From: Candidatus Gerdarchaeota archaeon
Lineage (GTDB): Archaea > Asgardarchaeota > Heimdallarchaeia > JABLTI01
DNA: 6,283 bases
Assembly: GCA_016840945.1 (NCBI GenBank)
Contig: JAEORJ010000001.1
Location: 1 to 6,283, forward strand
Direction: 5' to 3'
Positions 1-6,283 of this stretch are shown here, piece after piece. The notes under the pieces are model-generated. The model was not told the DNA's origin. It did not search any database and saw only the letters and a list, made by a program, of their open reading frames with translations. The position numbers and the translations under genes were made by a program. Every line of letters begins with the position of its first letter. Position 1 is the stretch's first letter.

Positions 1-134
1 CCAGCATAATAAATATCTAAACGTAATTGTGAATTCTCATTAACGAATTTCTCAAATGTTTCTTTTAGTGCTAAACATTTTTTGGTAGGTGGTCCTGCTA
101 AGAGTAATTCTAATCTCATTTTCTTGTTTGTCAT
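1..134 (-). CDS. Thioredoxin-fold-like small protein, N-terminal part only (cut by window edge)
   Basis: An open frame starts at ATG 134-132 and runs off the left edge after 44 codons. The start overlaps the stop of the lipoate ligase gene as ATGA, a typical translationally coupled junction, so this is the fourth gene of the minus-strand operon. The visible protein has a few polar residues, a hydrophobic strand (MRLELLLAG, residues 6-14), the turn PPTKKC (15-20) and then a helix-like stretch rich in Lys, Glu and Phe, ending near a second strand (LDIYYA). A strand, a Pro-containing turn with Cys and then a helix is how thioredoxin and glutaredoxin folds begin. If so, the first Cys of the usual CxxC is missing and only Cys20 remains. 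The identification rests on fewer than 50 residues and could be wrong. The gene itself is well supported by the overlap and the continuous frame. Confidence 0.6.
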   Translation of the reverse strand, partial: MTNKKMRLELLLAGPPTKKCLALKETFEKFVNENSQLRLDIYYA

Positions 135-1186
135 TGATTTTTCACCACTGATTCTTCTATTAAGGATATAATATCATACTTGAAATTTGATGGTAAATTA
201 CTTTCAGTAATTAGTGTTGTAGCTTCTGGAATCGTTTTATTTTGTAATGTTTGTATTAGTTTAATCAATAGTTCATTTTCCTTAAAAAGAAAATCACCAC
301 TAATAGTTAACTTAGCAATTTTATCATTAGCCATTTCTAATCCTAGACTAATAATCCCATAATCAGTTTTTCTCGAGAGTATTGTTTCCAAAGAAGCTTT
401 TTTACGAAAAGTCCAATCAATTGTTGAGTATTTATTTTGGTATAGGTTTTCTATTAATTCCTCTTCTTCTTTCGTGTAATTGCTTGTTACTGGATCAAAG
501 GTTACATTGATCTGCTCTTTTATGGTATTCACCAAAACGTCAATCACGTCATCCAATTCAAGTTTCTTATTAACAGCTTCTGAAAGATTAATCACTCGGT
601 CTTTAATATTGGTGAATCCTTTATCACTGAACTTCAATTTTGAAGGCTTTAGTGTTTTAGCCATTTGTTCAATATCAACATTTACTAGAAAAGTACCACT
701 ATGAACGAAAGCATCATATAATTGATTTTGAGCTGAACCATAGACCTTTCTGTTATTGATGGTAACATCATTTCGACCAGCTGTTTCAGCTTCAACACCA
801 AATTTATGGCAGGTGTTAACAATTACCTTACCAAATAGTTGATAGAGCGTGGAAGGGTCATTAATTTCTAAGTGGGTGAAAAAATCATCTGTTTTAAAGA
901 AAAACGAATAACAAAAACTTCCCGCATCTTGATAGACTGCTCCACCAGGATTAGGTCGACGAACAATAGGTATCTGTTCTTTTTTACAATATTCTACATC
1001 AACATCTTCTTCAGGGATTTGGTGCACTCCTATCCATACAGATCTTTCAAATGTTCTAATACGTAATGTTGGAGGGCTTCTACCTTCCTCAACTAATCGT
1101 AATAATGCTTCCTCTGCAGCAAAGTGTCTAAAAGGGTCTTTAATATCATCTCTAAGTAACCGTACTTTGAAAGACTCAACTTTCAT
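131..1186 (-). CDS. lplA: Lipoate-protein ligase A, two-domain (catalytic plus C-terminal accessory domain)
   Basis: The predicted enzyme activates lipoate as lipoyl-AMP and transfers it to a lysine of a lipoyl-domain protein in the cytoplasm. Taking ATG 1186 as start gives 351 residues. The N terminus (LLRDDIKDP, then FAAEEALL) matches the family opening. The nucleotide-binding loop RRPNPGGAVYQDAG (76-89) corresponds to the usual RRxSGGGAVYHDxG. GRNDVTINNRKVYGSAQ (137-153) holds the catalytic lysine, Lys147, and HSGTFL (162-167) matches HHGTLL. Residues about 260-350 (including ISGDFLF) resemble the accessory domain that some archaea encode separately as LplB, so this single chain should be self-sufficient. 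A longer frame from 1234 exists but runs 59 bases into the upstream gene and adds no family sequence; ATG 1186 overlaps it by only 11 bases. Departures from consensus are NPGG for SGGG and Gln for His in the loop. The probable substrate is the GcvH-like domain encoded on the other strand. Confidence 0.93.
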   Translation of the reverse strand: MKVESFKVRLLRDDIKDPFRHFAAEEALLRLVEEGRSPPTLRIRTFERSVWIGVHQIPEEDVDVEYCKKEQIPIVRRPNPGGAVYQDAGSFCYSFFFKTDDFFTHLEINDPSTLYQLFGKVIVNTCHKFGVEAETAGRNDVTINNRKVYGSAQNQLYDAFVHSGTFLVNVDIEQMAKTLKPSKLKFSDKGFTNIKDRVINLSEAVNKKLELDDVIDVLVNTIKEQINVTFDPVTSNYTKEEEELIENLYQNKYSTIDWTFRKKASLETILSRKTDYGIISLGLEMANDKIAKLTISGDFLFKENELLIKLIQTLQNKTIPEATTLITESNLPSNFKYDIISLIEESVVKNQ

Positions 1187-1865
1187 AATAACCACAAAGC
1201 TCCTTCTTACATTCATCCATATCTTTGAATTCACAAGTAAAAGTTGGTATCTTATATGATATCAGACCCTCTTCATTGAGGAATTTTAAAGTAGATTCAA
1301 TAGCTGAAAAAACGCTTTGTTTACAACACCGAGGTCCTCCCATAGCAGCTAAATCGATTAATGCTTTACCTGTCGCTTTCAAAGTTAAAGCACGCTCTTT
1401 GTCCGATTTATAACTTGCTCGAGTAATTATTGATACTGCTACACCTGCTCCCACACTAGCACCACAATCTCCTCGAGAGCCACAGGTGCCATAAGGTATA
1501 TCTATCGTTCTCTTAATAGCTGTTTTTATGCGATTGATGGGTATGTGAATTTCACCAGCATTAATTAAAGCTGCTAAAAGAGCTGGAGCAACAATAAGGT
1601 GATGTTCAATTCCGTGGCTGCGAAAGGTAGGGTGATGCATCAATAAATTAGCTATTTCAAAGGGATTAGTAGATTTTGTAGAAGTGGTAACTCGAAGAGT
1701 GATTTCTTCGGGATCAGCGGTTCTACAATCCTCACAAAGGAAATGTTGATGTTTACATAACCAATCAGCATGTTCAATTTTACCACAATACGTACATTTT
1801 GTTTCAATGGATGTTTCAGCTAGCTCTTCCTTACAAATAGGGCAATAAAACGTCACATTTATCAC
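1176..1865 (-). CDS. DUF5714-type cysteine-rich protein (function unknown)
   Basis: A 229-residue protein with 14 cysteines. The first 50 residues look like a metal-binding region: Cys8xxCys11, Cys24xxCys27, Cys37 and Cys44xxCys47, probably one or two zinc or Fe-S sites. The rest carries motifs I associate with DUF5714 proteins of methanogens and other anaerobes, where the domain can be fused to methyltransferases: HGIEHH (84-89), YGTCGSRGDCGASVGAGVA (125-143) and GGPRCCK (176-182). The GTCG...DCG and PRCC cysteines are candidates for a metal or thiol active site. The start is GTG at 1865; an in-frame stop lies four codons upstream and no ATG is available, and an internal GTG at 1856 is an alternative. 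It follows the ArsR gene by 16 bases and overlaps lplA by 11, so it should be co-expressed with the ligase. The biochemical role is unknown; this placement suggests a part in lipoyl or thiol chemistry, which is inference. Confidence 0.85.
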   Translation of the reverse strand: MINVTFYCPICKEELAETSIETKCTYCGKIEHADWLCKHQHFLCEDCRTADPEEITLRVTTSTKSTNPFEIANLLMHHPTFRSHGIEHHLIVAPALLAALINAGEIHIPINRIKTAIKRTIDIPYGTCGSRGDCGASVGAGVAVSIITRASYKSDKERALTLKATGKALIDLAAMGGPRCCKQSVFSAIESTLKFLNEEGLISYKIPTFTCEFKDMDECKKELCGYYES

Positions 1866-1881
1866 TAGCTTCTTTTCTTAA

Positions 1882-2205
1882 CTATAAAGCTTCTAGAAGA
1901 ATCTTCTGAGTTAGATCTTCCAAGAGTGGTTTGTCTAATGCCTTCACAATCTCAAGAATTTTGCTATTAGATAGACTATAGATCCTTTTCGTACCATCTT
2001 TTTTATCAGTGATAATACCACTCTCTCGTAGAATCCTCAAATGCCTTGAAATTAACGGTTGAGCAAGGTTCATCCTATCGACAATTTCGCAAACACATTT
2101 TTCATTTTCCCCTATGAAGTCAATTATATCTAATCTTAGTGGGTCTGCTAGTGCTTTGAAGAATTTTGCACGTATAGAGTTCTTATTTTCTGCCATGAAA
2201 TTCAT
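1882..2205 (-). CDS. ArsR/SmtB-family transcriptional repressor with CVC sensor motif
   Basis: A 107-residue winged-helix protein of typical ArsR size. ALADPLRLDIIDFI (18-31) is the family N-terminal helix region. The recognition helix is in LAQPLISRHLRILRESGII (47-65), and the wing in DKKDGTKRIYSL (67-78). The only two cysteines, Cys37 and Cys39, form Cys-Val-Cys before the DNA-binding helix, where arsenic-type ArsR proteins have ELCVCDL, so the inducer is probably a thiophilic metalloid, a metal or a reactive sulfur species. It is the first gene of the minus-strand operon and divergent to the HdrA-like gene. Two palindromes lie between them, so it probably represses both directions. The start is ATG 2205; ATG 2196 (fourth codon) is an alternative. 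With a transcription start about 26 bases from the symmetric TATA box, the mRNA would be nearly leaderless at 2205, consistent with the absence of a clear Shine-Dalgarno site. Confidence 0.92.
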   Translation of the reverse strand: MNFMAENKNSIRAKFFKALADPLRLDIIDFIGENEKCVCEIVDRMNLAQPLISRHLRILRESGIITDKKDGTKRIYSLSNSKILEIVKALDKPLLEDLTQKILLEAL

Positions 2206-2220
2206 AGCTTACAATTAAAT

Positions 2221-2244
2221 ATAACAATATTTAAATATTATTAT
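2221..2244. promoter_or_regulatory. Imperfect 24-bp palindrome over the TATA box, probable operator
   Basis: Eleven of twelve base pairs match around a centre between 2232 and 2233; only 2225/2240 fail. The left arm contains AATATAACAATATT (2218-2231), which recurs exactly at 2257-2270. It covers the shared TATA box, so a protein bound here would block both promoters. The AT-rich context makes short palindromes likely by chance, but the exact 14-base repeat in the second palindrome argues for a specific site. The probable ligand is the adjacent ArsR-family protein. Confidence 0.6.
2228..2237. promoter_or_regulatory. Symmetric archaeal TATA box, probably bidirectional
   Basis: TATTTAAATA reads the same on both strands and contains TTTAAATA, close to the archaeal TATA consensus. 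Measuring about 26 bases from its centre gives a plus-strand start near 2259, about 30 bases before ATG 2291. It gives a minus-strand start near 2206, one base before ArsR ATG 2205. Both fit usual archaeal spacing. The plus operon could instead use another AT-rich element around 2241-2250. Confidence 0.6.
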
Positions 2245-2256
2245 TTTATTTATGAC

Positions 2257-2278
2257 AATATAACAATATTGTTATATT
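2257..2278. promoter_or_regulatory. Perfect 22-bp palindrome, probable ArsR-family operator
   Basis: All eleven base pairs match: the left arm is AATATAACAAT and the right arm is its exact inverse, centred between 2267 and 2268. It ends 12 bases before ATG 2291 and covers the transcription start predicted from the TATA box, a standard place for an archaeal repressor to block RNA polymerase. Its left part repeats the 14-base sequence of the palindrome at 2221-2244, with centres 35 bp apart. Size and symmetry suit a dimeric winged-helix ArsR protein. Confidence 0.75.
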
Positions 2279-2290
2279 TGAGGTCTGTTA

Positions 2291-2662
2291 ATGACTGAGA
2301 AGAAAAAAATTGGTTTTATTATGTGTGTATGTACAGGGAAATGCCCTGGGTTTGAAAAAATGGATATATGGGATTTTGTTAATAGGGTAAGGGTAGAACT
2401 ACCAGTAGAATATGGTTTCATTCACCCACAATTATGTGAAGAAGATGGGGATAGATTTTTTGATGATTATTTAAGAGAAGGACGTAAATATATGATCGCT
2501 GGTTGTGCACCAACCATGCAGTATAAGCTCTTTAGGGATGCTTTCACTAAGAAAGGTTTAGATGTCAAACGAGATTTGATTCCACTAGATATTAGAGATA
2601 TGACCACTGATGACGCTTTTCAATTAGTAGAAAAAACACTTGAAGGATTAGGAGAAGAATAA
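2291..2662 (+). CDS. Stand-alone HdrA N-terminal-like Fe-S domain protein
   Basis: A 123-residue protein resembling the first domain of heterodisulfide reductase subunit HdrA, without the FAD and ferredoxin domains that follow in HdrA. The correspondences are GFIMCVCTGKC (8-18) with the HdrA opening YVCHCG, QLCEEDGDRF (47-56) with MCSDPG, IAGCAPTMQYKLFRDAFTKKGL (69-90) with VAACSPRLHEPTFR, and IPLDIRD (97-103) with the segment that reads NIRE in HdrA. Cysteines 12, 14, 18, 49 and 72 are candidates for a [4Fe-4S] cluster, which the HdrA N-terminal domain binds. It is the first gene of the plus operon. GAGGT at 2280-2284 sits six bases before the ATG and supports this start. The ferredoxin gene begins two bases after the stop. 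The probable role is cytoplasmic electron transfer with that ferredoxin. The family link rests on motif spacing; the function is inferred. Confidence 0.8.
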   Translation: MTEKKKIGFIMCVCTGKCPGFEKMDIWDFVNRVRVELPVEYGFIHPQLCEEDGDRFFDDYLREGRKYMIAGCAPTMQYKLFRDAFTKKGLDVKRDLIPLDIRDMTTDDAFQLVEKTLEGLGEE

Positions 2663-2664
2663 CA

Positions 2665-2970
2665 ATGGCTGAAAAGTATGACTCAACATCAGCTACATTC
2701 ATGGGTGTTCCTCGAAAAATAATACCTTGGTGGCCAACTATTGATTATGATAAATGCAATTATTGTATGGATTGTGATACCTTTTGTCCTCATAAAGTAT
2801 TTGAGAAAAGAGAGAATGAAGAGAAGCAATTAATTATAACCAATCCTTATAATTGTGTAGTTTTTTGTAGAGCTTGTGCGAAAATTTGCACCCCTGATGC
2901 TTTGAGCTTTCCAGATAAAAAAGAGATAACCTCAATCATTAAGGACTATCGAGCTAATAATACTGAGTGA
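2665..2970 (+). CDS. Dicluster 4Fe-4S ferredoxin with an atypical second motif
   Basis: A 101-residue soluble ferredoxin. Residues 15-30 (VPRKIIPWWPTIDYDK) match a recognisable ferredoxin subgroup that opens with VPRxxIPWxPTIDYxKC. Cluster motif 1 is the standard CxxCxxCxxxCP (Cys31, 34, 37, 41). Motif 2 is Cys64, Cys68, Cys71, Cys75: three residues instead of two separate the first pair, and Thr-Pro follows the last Cys instead of Pro alone. NPYNCVV before it is also typical of this subgroup. It should carry two [4Fe-4S] clusters and pass electrons in the cytoplasm. AGGAG at 2650-2654 precedes the ATG by ten bases, and the gene starts two bases after the HdrA-like gene. Its probable partners are that protein and the lipoyl carrier encoded next. 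Confidence 0.9.
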   Translation: MAEKYDSTSATFMGVPRKIIPWWPTIDYDKCNYCMDCDTFCPHKVFEKRENEEKQLIITNPYNCVVFCRACAKICTPDALSFPDKKEITSIIKDYRANNTE

Positions 2971-2975
2971 AGAAA

Positions 2976-3836
2976 ATGGCAAGAATATCTGTTTTAACTT
3001 GTGGTGGTATAGAGAAAGATTTAGGTTTAGTAACAAATGAATTGGCTTTAAAATTAACAGCGTTAGATCCAACTATTAAACTACTTAGTTTTGCATTATT
3101 ATGCACTAATAAGGAAAAATACCAAGAGATAATCAAAGAATCAACAATTATTGTTATTGATGGTTGTGCTACCCGATGTGCAGCAAAATTACTCGAGAAT
3201 CAAGAATATAAAAAGACTAAACGGATTTTTCTACCTGACGAGTACAAGAAGATTAAAAGTGTTATAGATGCAGCTGGAGGATCTACAGAAGAAAAAGAGA
3301 AAATAATAGCGCTGCTAGCACAAGAAATAATTAAAGAACTTAAGGAAGATGCTGAAAGCAGTGTAGAGTCAATTATTGAAAAAGAGTTTGGCGATATAGA
3401 GTATCACGAAATATCTTATGATAAATATCAATTCAAAGTACCGAAAGAAGGTTATTATTTTACTGAAAATGATTGTTGGGTAAAACCTGAAGGGACAAAA
3501 GCATTATTGGGGATAACAGATTACTTGCAAAATAATACTGGTGATATATTATTTGCTGATTTGCCAAAAGTAGATTCAGAGATAGAACAATTTGATGAAG
3601 TAGTTGAACTCGAATCAGTAAAGGCCGTTGTAGCTTTGATCTCACCTGTTTCAGGTAAGATTATTGCAGTTAATGCCAAACTTAAAGATGAACCAAATCT
3701 TATGAATGAAGATGCCTATGAACAAGGTTGGGCTGTAGAAATAGAATTAACAGCTTTTGAGGAAGAAAAGAAATTCCTCATGGATGGCGAACAATATTTT
3801 GAATATATGAAGAAGAAAATCGAAAAAGAATTGTAA
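2976..3836 (+). CDS. Fusion of a DGC (putative zinc-binding) domain and a GcvH-like lipoyl carrier domain
   Basis: A 286-residue, two-part protein. Residues 1-95 are a DGC domain: the N-terminal TCGG turn (Cys9), Cys43, then VIDGCATRC with Asp62, Gly63, Cys64 and Cys68. A charged helical linker follows (about 96-140). Residues about 143-283 match glycine cleavage H protein throughout: LLGITDYLQNNTGDILFADLP (177-197), the lipoylation motif ESVKA with Lys216 (codon 3621-3623), ISPVSGKIIAVN (222-233) and AYEQGWAVEIEL (247-258). The family HEW before the first core strand is changed to DCW. The lipoyl arm would shuttle electrons, acyl, methylamine or sulfur groups; no GcvP or GcvT gene is nearby. 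The operon-linked lipoate ligase probably modifies it. ATG 2976 is chosen, preceded by GAGTGA at 2965-2970. GTG 2967, overlapping the ferredoxin stop, would add three residues. Confidence 0.9.
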   Translation: MARISVLTCGGIEKDLGLVTNELALKLTALDPTIKLLSFALLCTNKEKYQEIIKESTIIVIDGCATRCAAKLLENQEYKKTKRIFLPDEYKKIKSVIDAAGGSTEEKEKIIALLAQEIIKELKEDAESSVESIIEKEFGDIEYHEISYDKYQFKVPKEGYYFTENDCWVKPEGTKALLGITDYLQNNTGDILFADLPKVDSEIEQFDEVVELESVKAVVALISPVSGKIIAVNAKLKDEPNLMNEDAYEQGWAVEIELTAFEEEKKFLMDGEQYFEYMKKKIEKEL

Positions 3837-3848
3837 AGAGATAGTAAA

Positions 3849-4256
3849 ATGACCAAAAAAGTATACATTATTCCTTGCAGTGGAATAGGTAAAGTTTATG
3901 GCAGTATGTGTCGGCATGCAGCATATAAAATCGTTAATGAATTAGAACCCGAGCGAACTGCTATCGAATGTTTGCCACTGATCGTAAAAGGAAAACAAGA
4001 AGTAGTTGATAAACTAAAAGCTAACAAAACGATAACTTTGGATGGTTGCACAGCAATGTGTGCATACTATGATGTAGCCAAAATTATCGGTGAACCAGAT
4101 GCTCAGTTTCTCTCTACCTCAGTCGTTCAGGAAAATCGTACCCTAAAGCCCGAACCAACCATAACTCCACTAGGTGAAAATGCAATGAAACTAACTGAAT
4201 TATTTGCTAAGAAAATTGCTAAAAAAGTAGGTGAATTATTAGATGGAGAAACTTGA
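3849..4256 (+). CDS. DGC-domain putative zinc-binding protein
   Basis: A 135-residue stand-alone DGC protein and the most canonical of the three here. Near the N terminus it has IIPCSGIGKVYGSMCRHAA (7-25; Cys10 and Cys21), then Cys41 in ECLPL, and the signature TLDGCTAMCA (63-72) with Asp65, Gly66, Cys67 and Cys71. The five cysteines are the expected metal or thiol ligands. The family is annotated as zinc-binding from its conserved cysteines; no reaction has been assigned that I know of. A final helix (LTELFAKKIAKKVGELL, 115-131) resembles the C-terminal helices of its two neighbours, which supports a common origin by duplication. It lies 12 bases after the fusion gene, with GAGAT at 3838-3842 as a weak ribosome site. 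The next gene overlaps its end by 14 bases, so expression is coupled. Confidence 0.88.
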   Translation: MTKKVYIIPCSGIGKVYGSMCRHAAYKIVNELEPERTAIECLPLIVKGKQEVVDKLKANKTITLDGCTAMCAYYDVAKIIGEPDAQFLSTSVVQENRTLKPEPTITPLGENAMKLTELFAKKIAKKVGELLDGET

Positions 4257-4689
4257 ATTACGCATAACAGAAAAACCAAAAATAGGTATTATCGCTTGTA
4301 GTGGAGAAAATTTAGTAGAAGGCACATTAAGTCGAGTAGCTACAAGAATCGTAGTTGAAAAATTACGACCATTAATCACAACTATTCTCTGTCAACCACT
4401 TTTTATGGCTGGAGATATTAAGAATAAAGGTGGAGGGAATGAACGCCTTTTTGCCATGAAACACAAAACTATTACCGTTGAAGGTTGTGAGGAAGCTTGC
4501 GCAAAATTTGCTGTTGAGGAATATAGTGCTCCAGCTGCAGCAACAATTTATATTAGAGAGATTATGAAGGCTCATCCAGAGTTAATTCCTGAATCCAAAG
4601 AAAACCTTGGAGAAAAAGGATTGAAGTTAGCTGAAATAATCGCCAATGAGATAGCCACTAAAGTGGATGAATTATATCATTCACAATAA
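4243..4689 (+). CDS. Divergent DGC-domain protein with an EGC signature
   Basis: A 148-residue paralogue of the preceding protein. The opening strand and Cys-Ser-Gly turn are kept (IGIIACSGENLVEGTLSRVA, 14-33; Cys19), as is a middle cysteine (Cys50 in LCQPL). The signature reads TVEGCEEACAKF (78-89): Glu80 replaces the family Asp, while Cys82 and Cys86 keep the CxxxC spacing. Compared with its neighbour it has about ten extra N-terminal residues and a short Gly-rich insert (NKGGGNE, 61-67). It ends in a related amphipathic helix (LAEIIANEIATKVDELYH). The ATG lies inside the previous gene; AGGTGA at 4229-4234 is a good archaeal ribosome site eight bases upstream and fixes this start. It is the last gene of the plus operon. 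It may form a heteromer with the other DGC proteins, which is inference. Confidence 0.85.
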   Translation: MEKLELRITEKPKIGIIACSGENLVEGTLSRVATRIVVEKLRPLITTILCQPLFMAGDIKNKGGGNERLFAMKHKTITVEGCEEACAKFAVEEYSAPAAATIYIREIMKAHPELIPESKENLGEKGLKLAEIIANEIATKVDELYHSQ

Positions 4690-4692
4690 TCA

Positions 4693-4698
4693 TTTTTT
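4693..4698 (+). terminator. Short T tract after the plus-strand operon
   Basis: Six T residues begin four bases after the stop of the last DGC gene. Archaeal RNA polymerase often ends transcription at such T runs without a hairpin. In an AT-rich window a run of six is weak evidence by itself; its position is the main support. Confidence 0.35.
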
Positions 4699-4758
4699 CT
4701 CAGACAAAATACAAGAGCTAACTTTGTTATGGGGTTCCAATTGAGTAATAATTTAATG

Positions 4759-4793
4759 AAAAAAAGTGAAAAATAGGAGGAAAGTATCCTCCT
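4759..4793 (-). terminator. Hairpin plus T tracts, terminator of the surface-protein gene
   Basis: AGGAGGA (4775-4781) and TCCTCCT (4787-4793) form a perfect seven-base stem with a five-base loop, 15 bases beyond the stop codon of the minus-strand surface-protein gene. Read on the minus strand, the stem is followed by T5, CAC and T7 (4773 down to 4759), the pattern of an intrinsic terminator. On the plus strand the hairpin is not followed by a comparable T run, so it serves the minus-strand gene. Confidence 0.75.
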
Positions 4794-4808
4794 CAGTACT
4801 CAAAAACT

Positions 4809-6283
4809 CTATCCTCGTTTTTTGAATTTTAATAAAGAACCAATTGCTGCTGTTGATAAGGCAATAATAACCACATAAATCGGGAAGCCTGTAATGGTGG
4901 TTGGTAAAGTTATTGTTGTAGGTGTTGGGTGAATGATTGAAAAGGTTGTTTCTGAGATATCCACGATAGGATCAAGAACGATACTAAAATAGCTAGCAGT
5001 CAAAGTAATTCGAAGACGATAGTTAATACCCGAGGGTAGTGCAGAAGTATTCCAGCTATAAGATGTACCTGTCAAACCTGAAGCTATTAGTTCCCAAGAG
5101 GAGCCATTATAGGAGTATTCAAGTTTAATTTCATAGATAATATCTGGATTGGTGTATACAAGATTCCAGCTAACCAAACAACTACTATCAATAGTTTCTC
5201 CACCGTTAGGATTAATGAGATTCATTAGAATGTCGGGGTAATTGTCGATTGTGAATGTAGTATCTGAAATATCAACTATAGGATCAAGTTCGACACCTAA
5301 ATATGTAGCTGTTAAGGTTACCCTTACACGATAGTTCGTTCCCATAGCTAAAGGAATGGTATCCCACTCATAGGATTCACCTGTAATACCTAAAGTAATT
5401 AGCTCCCAGGCAGTACCATTGTAGGAATATTCTAACATGATTTCATAAATAATCAAATCATTGGTATAGTCAACATTCCACGAAATGGTATGTGTACCGG
5501 TGATAGTTTCACCGCCATTAGGATTGATAAGATTCATATCAATCGATGGGCGATTATCGACGGTAAAGAGACCTGAGATGGCTTCAACTGGTTCATCCAG
5601 AGTGTTTTGAACGACTAACCTCAATCGAGTAGTAGTTGAATAGACAATACCGGTGCTATCCCAATCAATGGTTAATAACGTATCAGCAATGGAATCATCA
5701 ATCAATACCCAAACAGGTTCACCACTAACAACTGAGTAATAGAGCTCAAAACCAGAAATGTACTCATCAGGATCGATAATAGACCATGAAACAGAAATCA
5801 TTCCTTGATAGAGTAATCCCGATAGCGGGGTTGTAATAGAAGCTTCGGGGATATCTACATTATCAATTGTAAAGGTGAAATCCGACTCATCATTATCAGT
5901 ACCACCATAACCATCGTTAGCATAAACAATCACACTGACAGTAGTAGAATCAGCAATGCCACTGATATCCCAAAGATAAGAGGTATTGGTCAAGCCCGAT
6001 ACGATCATCGTCCAACTACCTGCAGTAGTACGATACCCAAGGCTATAGGTCAACGAATCATCATCAGGATCGGATCCAGACCATTCAATCAGAATGGAGT
6101 CTTGATAGGTGTCACCGCCATTTGGAGCAGTCAGAGTCACTTCACAAGCACGATTTTTGACTAAATAGCTGAAAGTTTCATTGTCAATATTCAGAATCGT
6201 TATCGAATTATCATTCGTATCAATCGCCAGAATATACCAGTAAACAACAGTTCCATGATCAAAACTTGGGATATTACCATACC
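4809..6283 (-). CDS. Cell-surface protein with tandem Ig/FN3-like repeats and C-terminal membrane anchor (N terminus cut by window edge)
   Basis: The frame is open from the right edge to TAG at 4811-4809, giving the last 490 residues of a larger protein; the real start lies outside the window. A GTG at 6140 is internal, because coding sequence continues upstream as a beta-rich segment (VVYWYILAIDTNDNS). Four domains of about 95-100 residues follow, each with an opening such as NPNGGET, a strand ending in SW, the pattern Y..NG..WELI, a turn like GLTGTSY.W, and a closing TFTIDN. After them come a Thr/Pro-rich stalk (HPTPTTITLPTTITG), one hydrophobic helix (PIYVVIIALSTAAIGSLL) and the basic tail KFKKRG. 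The protein should be secreted, with the repeats outside and the tail in the cytoplasm. Adhesion or an envelope role is plausible. It faces the redox operon convergently and has no evident functional link to it. Confidence 0.88.
   Translation of the reverse strand, partial: YGNIPSFDHGTVVYWYILAIDTNDNSITILNIDNETFSYLVKNRACEVTLTAPNGGDTYQDSILIEWSGSDPDDDSLTYSLGYRTTAGSWTMIVSGLTNTSYLWDISGIADSTTVSVIVYANDGYGGTDNDESDFTFTIDNVDIPEASITTPLSGLLYQGMISVSWSIIDPDEYISGFELYYSVVSGEPVWVLIDDSIADTLLTIDWDSTGIVYSTTTRLRLVVQNTLDEPVEAISGLFTVDNRPSIDMNLINPNGGETITGTHTISWNVDYTNDLIIYEIMLEYSYNGTAWELITLGITGESYEWDTIPLAMGTNYRVRVTLTATYLGVELDPIVDISDTTFTIDNYPDILMNLINPNGGETIDSSCLVSWNLVYTNPDIIYEIKLEYSYNGSSWELIASGLTGTSYSWNTSALPSGINYRLRITLTASYFSIVLDPIVDISETTFSIIHPTPTTITLPTTITGFPIYVVIIALSTAAIGSLLKFKKRG
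4935..6140 (-). repeat. Four tandem beta-sandwich domain repeats within the surface-protein gene
   Basis: Approximate units are 6140-5859, 5849-5553, 5540-5241 and 5231-4935, each about 280-300 bases and separated by short linkers. The last two are clearly closest: both contain MNLINPNGGETI, YEI.LEYSYNG, WELI, YR.R.TLTA.Y and LDPIVDIS, and many identical bases remain, which points to a fairly recent duplication. The first two units share the same frame of motifs but have diverged. Confidence 0.8.

Follow-up and report, generated by a model that had tools for sequence, protein, structure and literature searches.

The 6,283-nucleotide stretch analysed here in full (the window; Candidatus Gerdarchaeota archaeon, assembly GCA_016840945.1, contig JAEORJ010000001.1, positions 1 to 6,283) carries two divergent operons and is very probably one copy of a conserved gene module linked to arsenic. 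The plus-strand operon encodes, in order, a small iron-sulfur protein resembling the N-terminal domain of HdrA (hereafter HdrAs), a ferredoxin, a fusion of a DGC domain with a GcvH-like lipoyl carrier, and two further DGC proteins. On the minus strand, an ArsR regulator is followed by a DUF5714 protein, an LplA-type lipoate ligase and the start of a further gene past the left edge (Table 1). Every gene named in an earlier reading of the window from its letters alone (the original prediction) was found to be present. Asgard archaea and many anaerobic bacteria have the module in common, and it appears to form a hitherto undescribed electron relay that deals with arsenic. The link to arsenic is well supported. 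That the module acts as a redox relay, rather than as a mere carrier, we hold with moderate confidence, and we infer only tentatively, at less than even likelihood, that reduction of an arsenical is its actual reaction. The combined reading, in which the window is one copy of an ArsR-controlled relay of anaerobes that reduces arsenicals or holds them for export, seems to us about evenly balanced between right and wrong.

A five-gene unit found in archaea and bacteria

A contig scan with the DGC-GcvH fusion yielded 87 confirmed relatives, and 80 loci were retained. Within 10 kb of the fusion relative, HdrAs was present in 74/80 loci, ferredoxin in 78/80, and further DGC genes in 79/80. The DGC and GcvH domains were fused in 73/80 loci, and 69 of these 73 preserved the complete order HdrAs-ferredoxin-DGC-GcvH-DGC-DGC, and the median intergenic distances ranged from -17 to +1 nucleotides; loci with the full order span Asgard archaea and several bacterial phyla. 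Of the other seven loci, one (L033) is a fragment at a contig end, and six come from Bathyarchaeota and have an unfused GcvH, which in five of them is preceded by DGC as a separate gene. One locus (L042) comes from a record titled Alphaproteobacteria, while its fusion was placed inside the Bacteroidota branch, perhaps reflecting a misbinned contig or a transfer.

Fifty of the 80 loci, chosen by eye for long flanks and mostly one per genome, were taken into whole-genome searches. A strong HdrAs match was found in 49/50 of these genomes, mostly as a single copy. Compared with the copies in these genomes, the HdrAs of the window shows 82-86% identity to those of Asgard archaea and 64-74% to the strong ones of bacteria and Bathyarchaeota. 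Searches seeded with HdrAs led to the same unit. HdrAs was found in 31/227 Asgard-phylum genomes, and HdrAs-ferredoxin-DGC-GcvH in 29/30 HdrAs-seeded Asgard loci (the thirtieth is cut by a contig end), at least nine of the 30 being in genomes already reached via the fusion. In the phyla of two bacterial genomes, G023 and G013, HdrAs occurred in 18/291 and 24/398 genomes, respectively, and the close HdrAs loci of these phyla carried the fusion in 14/16 cases, the exceptions being L155 and the truncated L183. Judged by gene order, HdrAs, ferredoxin, DGC-GcvH, DGC and DGC thus form a single operon that is conserved in both archaeal and bacterial phyla. We rejected a scattered or chance neighbourhood, since the full order is kept in 69/73 fused loci and the fusion accompanies HdrAs in 29/30 and 14/16 HdrAs-seeded loci; the original prediction had named scattered homologues as a finding that would tell against it. 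Named strains of Clostridium ljungdahlii, C. ragsdalei and Acetobacterium are among the carriers of the module. As these are cultured acetogens, the module could be tested soon.

The original prediction had also proposed a search for co-occurrence of DUF5714 and LplA with DGC, GcvH-like and HdrA-N-like genes within 10 kb. DUF5714 was found in only one of the 80 related loci (L068, positions 6209-8338), where it lies behind a radical SAM domain in a 709-aa protein that adjoins a methyltransferase and the module. LplA was found in 18/80 module loci, compared with 9/37 control loci around canonical gcvH genes. On these counts, both are accessory to the module, and LplA has no specificity for it.

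The carrier is set apart from glycine cleavage H proteins

We compared the carrier with its relatives in a tree of 120 GcvH domains and 135 columns, which contained no LbpA sequence. The module branch, made up of 73 fused rows (the window included) and eight unfused or short GcvH rows, was separated, at a support of 100/99, from an additional GcvH and from 38 canonical GcvH sequences found in the same genomes, and the window fell beside L001-L004. In addition, of the 73 fused loci, 22 have LpdA immediately upstream of the module and 12 have LplA immediately downstream. At the level of sequence, then, the GcvH of the module forms a lineage of its own, and a gene for a lipoate ligase or lipoamide dehydrogenase adjoins the module at some loci.

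The GcvH domain of the window exceeds the Pfam cut-off, as would be expected if the carrier were the H protein of the glycine cleavage system or a reserve copy of it. That explanation is disfavoured, and we consider it highly improbable, given the separation of module GcvH from the canonical GcvH of the same genomes and the distribution of GcvP. A glycine cleavage system without an H protein of its own, a situation raised in the original prediction, was the exception: of 37 genomes with a strong GcvP match, 36 carry a further GcvH-family gene (matches compared by eye). The remaining genome, G021, has no other GcvH-family gene, and its GcvP lies near a contig end. Conversely, 13/50 genomes carry the module without a strong GcvP. 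We therefore rejected the H-protein assignment. The carrier of the window differs from a glycine cleavage H protein by its own branch, its fusion to DGC and the lack of an adjacent GcvP or GcvT; neither gcvP nor gcvT was found among the window's open reading frames (ORFs) in a Pfam scan, in agreement with the original prediction. As a separate observation, three GcvH-like genes lie within 6.5 kb at an Actinomycetota locus (L049; genome G031, contig C7, 14.4-20.8 kb), and one of them is the fusion.

Arsenic genes surround the module

Neighbours of the module, named via NCBIfam and Pfam, included ACR3, ArsM, ArsC-like proteins, ArsA, ArsE-like thioredoxin, ArsP-type permeases, CcdA-like proteins and LpdA. 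The profiles used for the neighbour counts in the 80 loci, in the HdrAs-seeded loci, in the control loci and around the distant HdrAs described below were built by us from the loci themselves. At an E-value threshold of 1e-6, at least one of ACR3, ArsM, ArsC, ArsA and ArsP lay within 10 kb in 54/80 loci, and in 41/55 of those with flanks of at least 5 kb on each side. By comparison, at the same threshold, arsenic genes were found at 0/37 canonical gcvH loci, which were drawn from the main-set genomes, with none from those carrying the distant HdrAs. ArsM scores ranged from 31 to 342 bits, and the ArsM part of the 54/80 count is inflated. We therefore counted ArsM matches over the cut-off separately; 17 genomes have such a match, and in 8 of them it lies no more than 10 kb from HdrAs.

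Distances within whole genomes gave the same picture. ACR3 lay within 10 kb of HdrAs in 25/49 genomes with a strong HdrAs, where 0.30 would be expected at random (P ~8e-45, ignoring kinship). This comparison used 52 of 59 ACR3 matches (seven fragments or weak matches were dropped) and 52 of 62 HdrAs matches; nine of the ten weak HdrAs matches dropped lie in frames of >600 aa, the size of full HdrA. Among the 227 Asgard genomes, ACR3 was present in 28/31 genomes with HdrAs versus 124/196 without (Fisher P 0.0015), and it lay within 10 kb of HdrAs in at least 13 of the 31. In five loci (L102, L104, L107, L108 and L109), ACR3 is directly upstream of the module on the same strand. In Caloramator fervidus (L043), a single strand carries ArsR, ACR3, a split ArsP, LpdA, the five module genes and LplA, followed by an MFS transporter, a second ArsR, an ArsE-like gene and ArsP, with three other ORFs interspersed.

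Several observations weigh against our reading. ArsR is the only arsenic gene in the 6.3 kb of the window, and four of its nearest relatives with >5 kb on both flanks (L002, L003, L004 and L006) likewise show no other within 10 kb; among the nearest fully flanked relatives, only L001 has one, an ACR3. The tested arsenic genes are missing from 26/80 loci. LpdA was found near only one Asgard locus (L009). The substrate cannot be read from the neighbourhood, and thiol chemistry of this kind would also suit antimony, selenium or sulfur. Some loci come from related strains, so that the counts lack phylogenetic independence, and metagenome-assembled genomes are incomplete and possibly chimeric. Lastly, ArsC-like genes occur in bacteria near the module (15/80 loci) and also near its distant homologues. 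No ArsC exceeded the curated cut-offs of TIGR02691 or TIGR00014 in the 50 genomes. At E 1e-8, weaker ArsC-like matches, of up to 135.6 bits, were found in 41/50 genomes, and some of these proteins are probably ordinary phosphatases; at some Acetobacterium and Bacteroidota loci such matches lie close to the module, and one of 98.5 bits is in an Asgard genome (G004). ArsC-ACR3 pairs also stand beside distant HdrAs genes. Given the ArsC-like genes near the module in some bacteria, the module is probably not a simple replacement for ArsC.

The module could instead consist of general thiol-redox or stress genes that settled in metal-resistance islands and have no direct role in arsenic handling. 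The islands do also carry genes for thioredoxin, CcdA and LpdA, and the 26 loci without any tested arsenic gene would fit such a history. We nevertheless think it quite unlikely, in view of the same-strand ACR3 directly upstream in the five loci named above and of an arsenic link that is common to two diverged groups of HdrAs.

Distant HdrAs homologues also stand among arsenic genes

The second of these groups consists of distant HdrAs homologues, with 31-46% identity, from the phyla of G013 and G023. Twenty-eight loci made up this set (L159-L171, L173, L184-L197), from which 27 neighbourhoods of at most 16.5 kb each were taken (L198-L224). The distant HdrAs adjoins a small ferredoxin in 24/27, and no DGC-GcvH was seen among the genes displayed around it in any of the 27. 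At an E-value threshold of 1e-5, ACR3, ArsM, ArsC, ArsA or ArsP was present in 21/27 neighbourhoods, or in 25/27 when ArsR is counted as well. Since the distant HdrAs, mostly beside a ferredoxin, stands among arsenic genes without DGC-GcvH, the HdrA-N protein is linked to arsenic by itself, with the lipoyl and DGC parts as an apparent extension. The stand-alone HdrA-N-like protein and its ferredoxin seem to be an undescribed arsenic gene pair in their own right. Two neighbourhoods look like intermediate forms: L201 and L202 carry DGC, DGC and HdrAs (L201 also ferredoxin), together with matches to ArsP, ArsE and thioredoxin profiles, and lack GcvH. By these gene counts, the operon and the distant HdrA-N homologues alike occur among arsenic genes far more often than do the control loci.

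Comparison with HdrA chains in the PDB indicates that HdrAs has the HdrA-N fold. The match covers only the N-terminal 90-140 residues of these chains, as it did for 5/7 HdrA rows in a second comparison. The FAD/thioredoxin-reductase domain of full HdrA is not present in HdrAs, which stops at 123 aa. The first DGC domain of the window (DGC1) has the same element order as HdrAs, and a GC motif lines up between the two (hhalign probability 29%); DGC might be an iron-sulfur domain distantly akin to HdrA-N.

The ArsR regulator and the divergent promoter

The CVC box is a marker of metal(loid) sensing in ArsR-type regulators. The ArsR of the window has two cysteines in total, both inside such a box (KCVCEI), and a CVC-type motif was present in 23/25 module-adjacent ORFs picked as ArsR. 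The 85 bp between the divergent operons carry two palindromes, both candidate ArsR operators (Table 1). Six loci (L001-L006), from Heimdallarchaeota or unclassified Asgard archaea, retain the 24-bp palindrome; seven further Asgard loci were inspected, and none showed it. Seven Lokiarchaeota loci (L008-L012, L014 and L016) have a second divergent operon beside the module, composed of ArsR, a small gene (c16) and an extra DGC gene. The ORF at the left edge of the window may be the counterpart of c16; from its own sequence and the position of c16 beside ArsR, we would guess that it is thioredoxin-like.

A proposed relay and its significance

In the relay that we propose, As(III) or a similar thiophilic metalloid would be sensed by the CVC box of ArsR, which would release the divergent promoter. 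LplA would lipoylate the GcvH domain. A low-potential ferredoxin would donate electrons to the HdrA-N cluster, with NADH acting through LpdA as a further presumptive source in many bacteria, and from the cluster they would reach the lipoyl dithiol on its swinging arm and the cysteines in the three DGC domains. Once reduced, these thiols could act on pentavalent, thiolated or methylated arsenicals by reducing them, or could retain the product; ACR3 or ArsP would export the resulting trivalent species. A bolder version, which we consider unlikely, is that the module is a ferredoxin-driven, lipoyl-dependent arsenical reductase new to biochemistry; Cys18 of the HdrA-N cluster could then bind arsenic, the enzyme would fill the apparent gap in pentavalent-arsenical reduction in Asgard archaea, and DGC would be an arsenic or iron-sulfur domain, not a zinc domain.

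The same parts can be arranged without a reduction step. Dihydrolipoate, like other dithiols, binds As(III) tightly, and the protein ArsD acts as a chaperone for it; As(III) might likewise be bound by the dihydrolipoyl arm together with the DGC cysteines and passed to ACR3 or ArsA, with the ferredoxin and the HdrA-N protein merely keeping the thiols reduced. Such an arsenite carrier would suit the three DGC domains, each with four conserved cysteines (93-100%; DGC1 of the window is one short, having Ser at position 38 where 93% of relatives have Cys), and its having ACR3, ArsA and ArsP as neighbours. It does not account, however, for arsenic islands that contain the HdrA-N protein, in most cases beside a ferredoxin, and no DGC-GcvH, and we regard it as improbable.

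The toxicity of arsenic is classically attributed to lipoyl thiols. If the proposed relay is real, arsenic handling would be a third kind of task for lipoic acid, besides 2-oxoacid and glycine metabolism and sulfur oxidation by the sHdr system. The relay would also offer a testable function for the DGC domain and for the unusually well conserved family of small HdrA-N proteins. In a published survey, Asgard lineages are reported to have acr3 and arsM and to lack arsC1 and arsC2, for which gene loss or different enzyme systems are suggested there (PMC10060404). If the proposed relay is right, the module would be a candidate, open to testing, for the arsenic reduction step that appears to be missing in Asgard archaea.

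Features of the window

Table 1. Features of the 6,283-nucleotide window
Feature	Position	Strand	Evidence or remark
Partial ORF (5' part, 44 residues seen; continues beyond the left edge)	1..134	-	No Pfam/NCBIfam match
LplA-type lipoate-protein ligase with C-terminal domain	131..1189	-	PF21948 E 4e-47; PF10437 E 3e-5
DUF5714 protein	1176..1865	-	Pfam/NCBIfam scans
ArsR/SmtB regulator	1882..2205	-	Pfam/NCBIfam; NF033788 over cut-off
24-bp palindrome, candidate ArsR operator	2221..2244		Shared promoter
22-bp perfect palindrome, candidate second ArsR operator	2257..2278		Shared promoter
HdrA-N-like Fe-S protein (HdrAs), 123 aa	2291..2662	+	Cys 12, 14, 18, 49, 72 invariant
2x[4Fe-4S] ferredoxin	2665..2970	+	Eight invariant Cys: 31, 34, 37, 41, 64, 68, 71, 75
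DGC-GcvH fusion, predicted lipoylated carrier	2976..3836	+	DGC Cys 9, 64, 68; lipoyl Lys216; GcvH domain over Pfam cut-off
Lipoyl-acceptor lysine codon (Lys216)	3621..3623	+	Within DGC-GcvH
DGC protein 2	3849..4256	+	Cys 10, 41, 67, 71 in 100% of 73 sequences
DGC protein 3	4243..4689	+	Cys 19, 50, 82, 86 in 100% of 73 sequences

The best NCBIfam model for the ligase was TIGR00545 (lipoyltrans; 217.9 bits, cut-off 280). It scored 121.5 bits with the LplAB model (cut-off 550) and matched PDB 8cri with an E-value of 3e-31. NCBIfam ties the DUF5714 protein of the window to the selenoprotein MbdU by a match below the cut-off, and no paper was found in the full-text literature for DUF5714 or for PF08859. 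Downstream of the module, positions 4809-6281 on the minus strand encode the 490-aa C-terminal part of a repeat-containing protein with an apparent terminal transmembrane segment and without a Pfam match, probably an unrelated surface protein. A role in anti-phage defence was rejected, PADLOC having given 0 matches among six proteins.

Comparison with known systems

The original prediction compared the window with the sHdr system of sulfur oxidation and proposed a self-contained lipoylated redox module distinct from it. The distinctness and self-containment stand, given the order kept in 69/73 fused loci and the results below; the slant towards sulfur found no support, and the arsenic context, which is not visible in the window itself, had been missed. 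The module resembles the sHdr-LbpA system (Hyphomicrobium denitrificans type) in a GcvH-like, predicted lipoylated carrier that very probably does not serve glycine cleavage, a lipoate ligase in the locus, an HdrA-related iron-sulfur protein and an ArsR-type regulator. It differs in having DGC domains, an LplA-type ligase, an ArsR of the CVC type and arsenic neighbours. No HdrB-like (CCG) ORF was found in the 80 loci, some of them cut by contig ends, with six phmmer queries and a motif scan. PF02754 occurs somewhere in at least 40 of the 50 genomes. As the original prediction had stated, neither HdrB nor a full HdrA was found in the window.

The sHdr regulator sHdrR has Cys50 and Cys116 (PMC12423496). 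That pattern was not found in the ArsR of the window, which has the CVC box instead. The two-Cys pattern is not decisive, because many regulators near shdr clusters are reported to lack the two cysteines (PMC12423496). We rejected membership of sHdr because no HdrB-like ORF was found in the 80 loci, some of them cut by contig ends, and because the ArsR of the window is of the CVC type.

A transfer of sulfur or selenium resembling that of sHdr would still be conceivable, with the lipoyl arm bearing sulfane sulfur or selenide (for example, from thioarsenate) and the link to arsenic being indirect. The analogy with LbpA suggests it (PMC10332631), and so do several neighbouring genes: one of the cysteine desulfurase family (17/80 loci versus 1/37 controls), one for a Se/S-carrier-like protein (six loci) and, near some loci, one of the YeeE-type Sulf_transp family. 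We consider it very unlikely all the same, since no HdrB-like ORF was found in the 80 loci, the ArsR of the window departs from the sHdrR pattern (PMC12423496), and the enrichment of arsenic genes is far over the control. The downstream flanks of three Lokiarchaeota loci (L010, L012 and L014) carry a YeeE-type sulfur transporter (PF04143, tested on L010) and three small neighbouring genes.

With ars operons (ArsR, ACR3, ArsC, ArsM, ArsA and ArsP), the module shares the type of regulator and, in many relatives, the neighbourhood, at some loci directly; the window differs in having no efflux pump gene in its 6.3 kb. To our knowledge, no known ars gene corresponds to the lipoyl, DGC, HdrA-N or ferredoxin parts, and none was found in the literature searched. 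Nor was the module itself found described, as the original prediction had supposed, in a full-text literature that mostly leaves subscription papers outside its scope, so that a description elsewhere is possible. Of the selenocysteine-assisted organometal (SAO) genes of NCBIfam, a SaoE-like or ArsP-type permease lies near some loci; the one SaoE match among the scanned proteins scored 129.7 bits, far under the cut-off of 325, other Sao models not having been searched for. Finally, HdrAs shares with the N-terminal domain of methanogen HdrA its fold and four matching cysteines in the alignment, and differs from methanogen HdrA in being a free-standing protein of 123 aa, without the FAD domain and with an extra invariant Cys18 (CxCxGxC).

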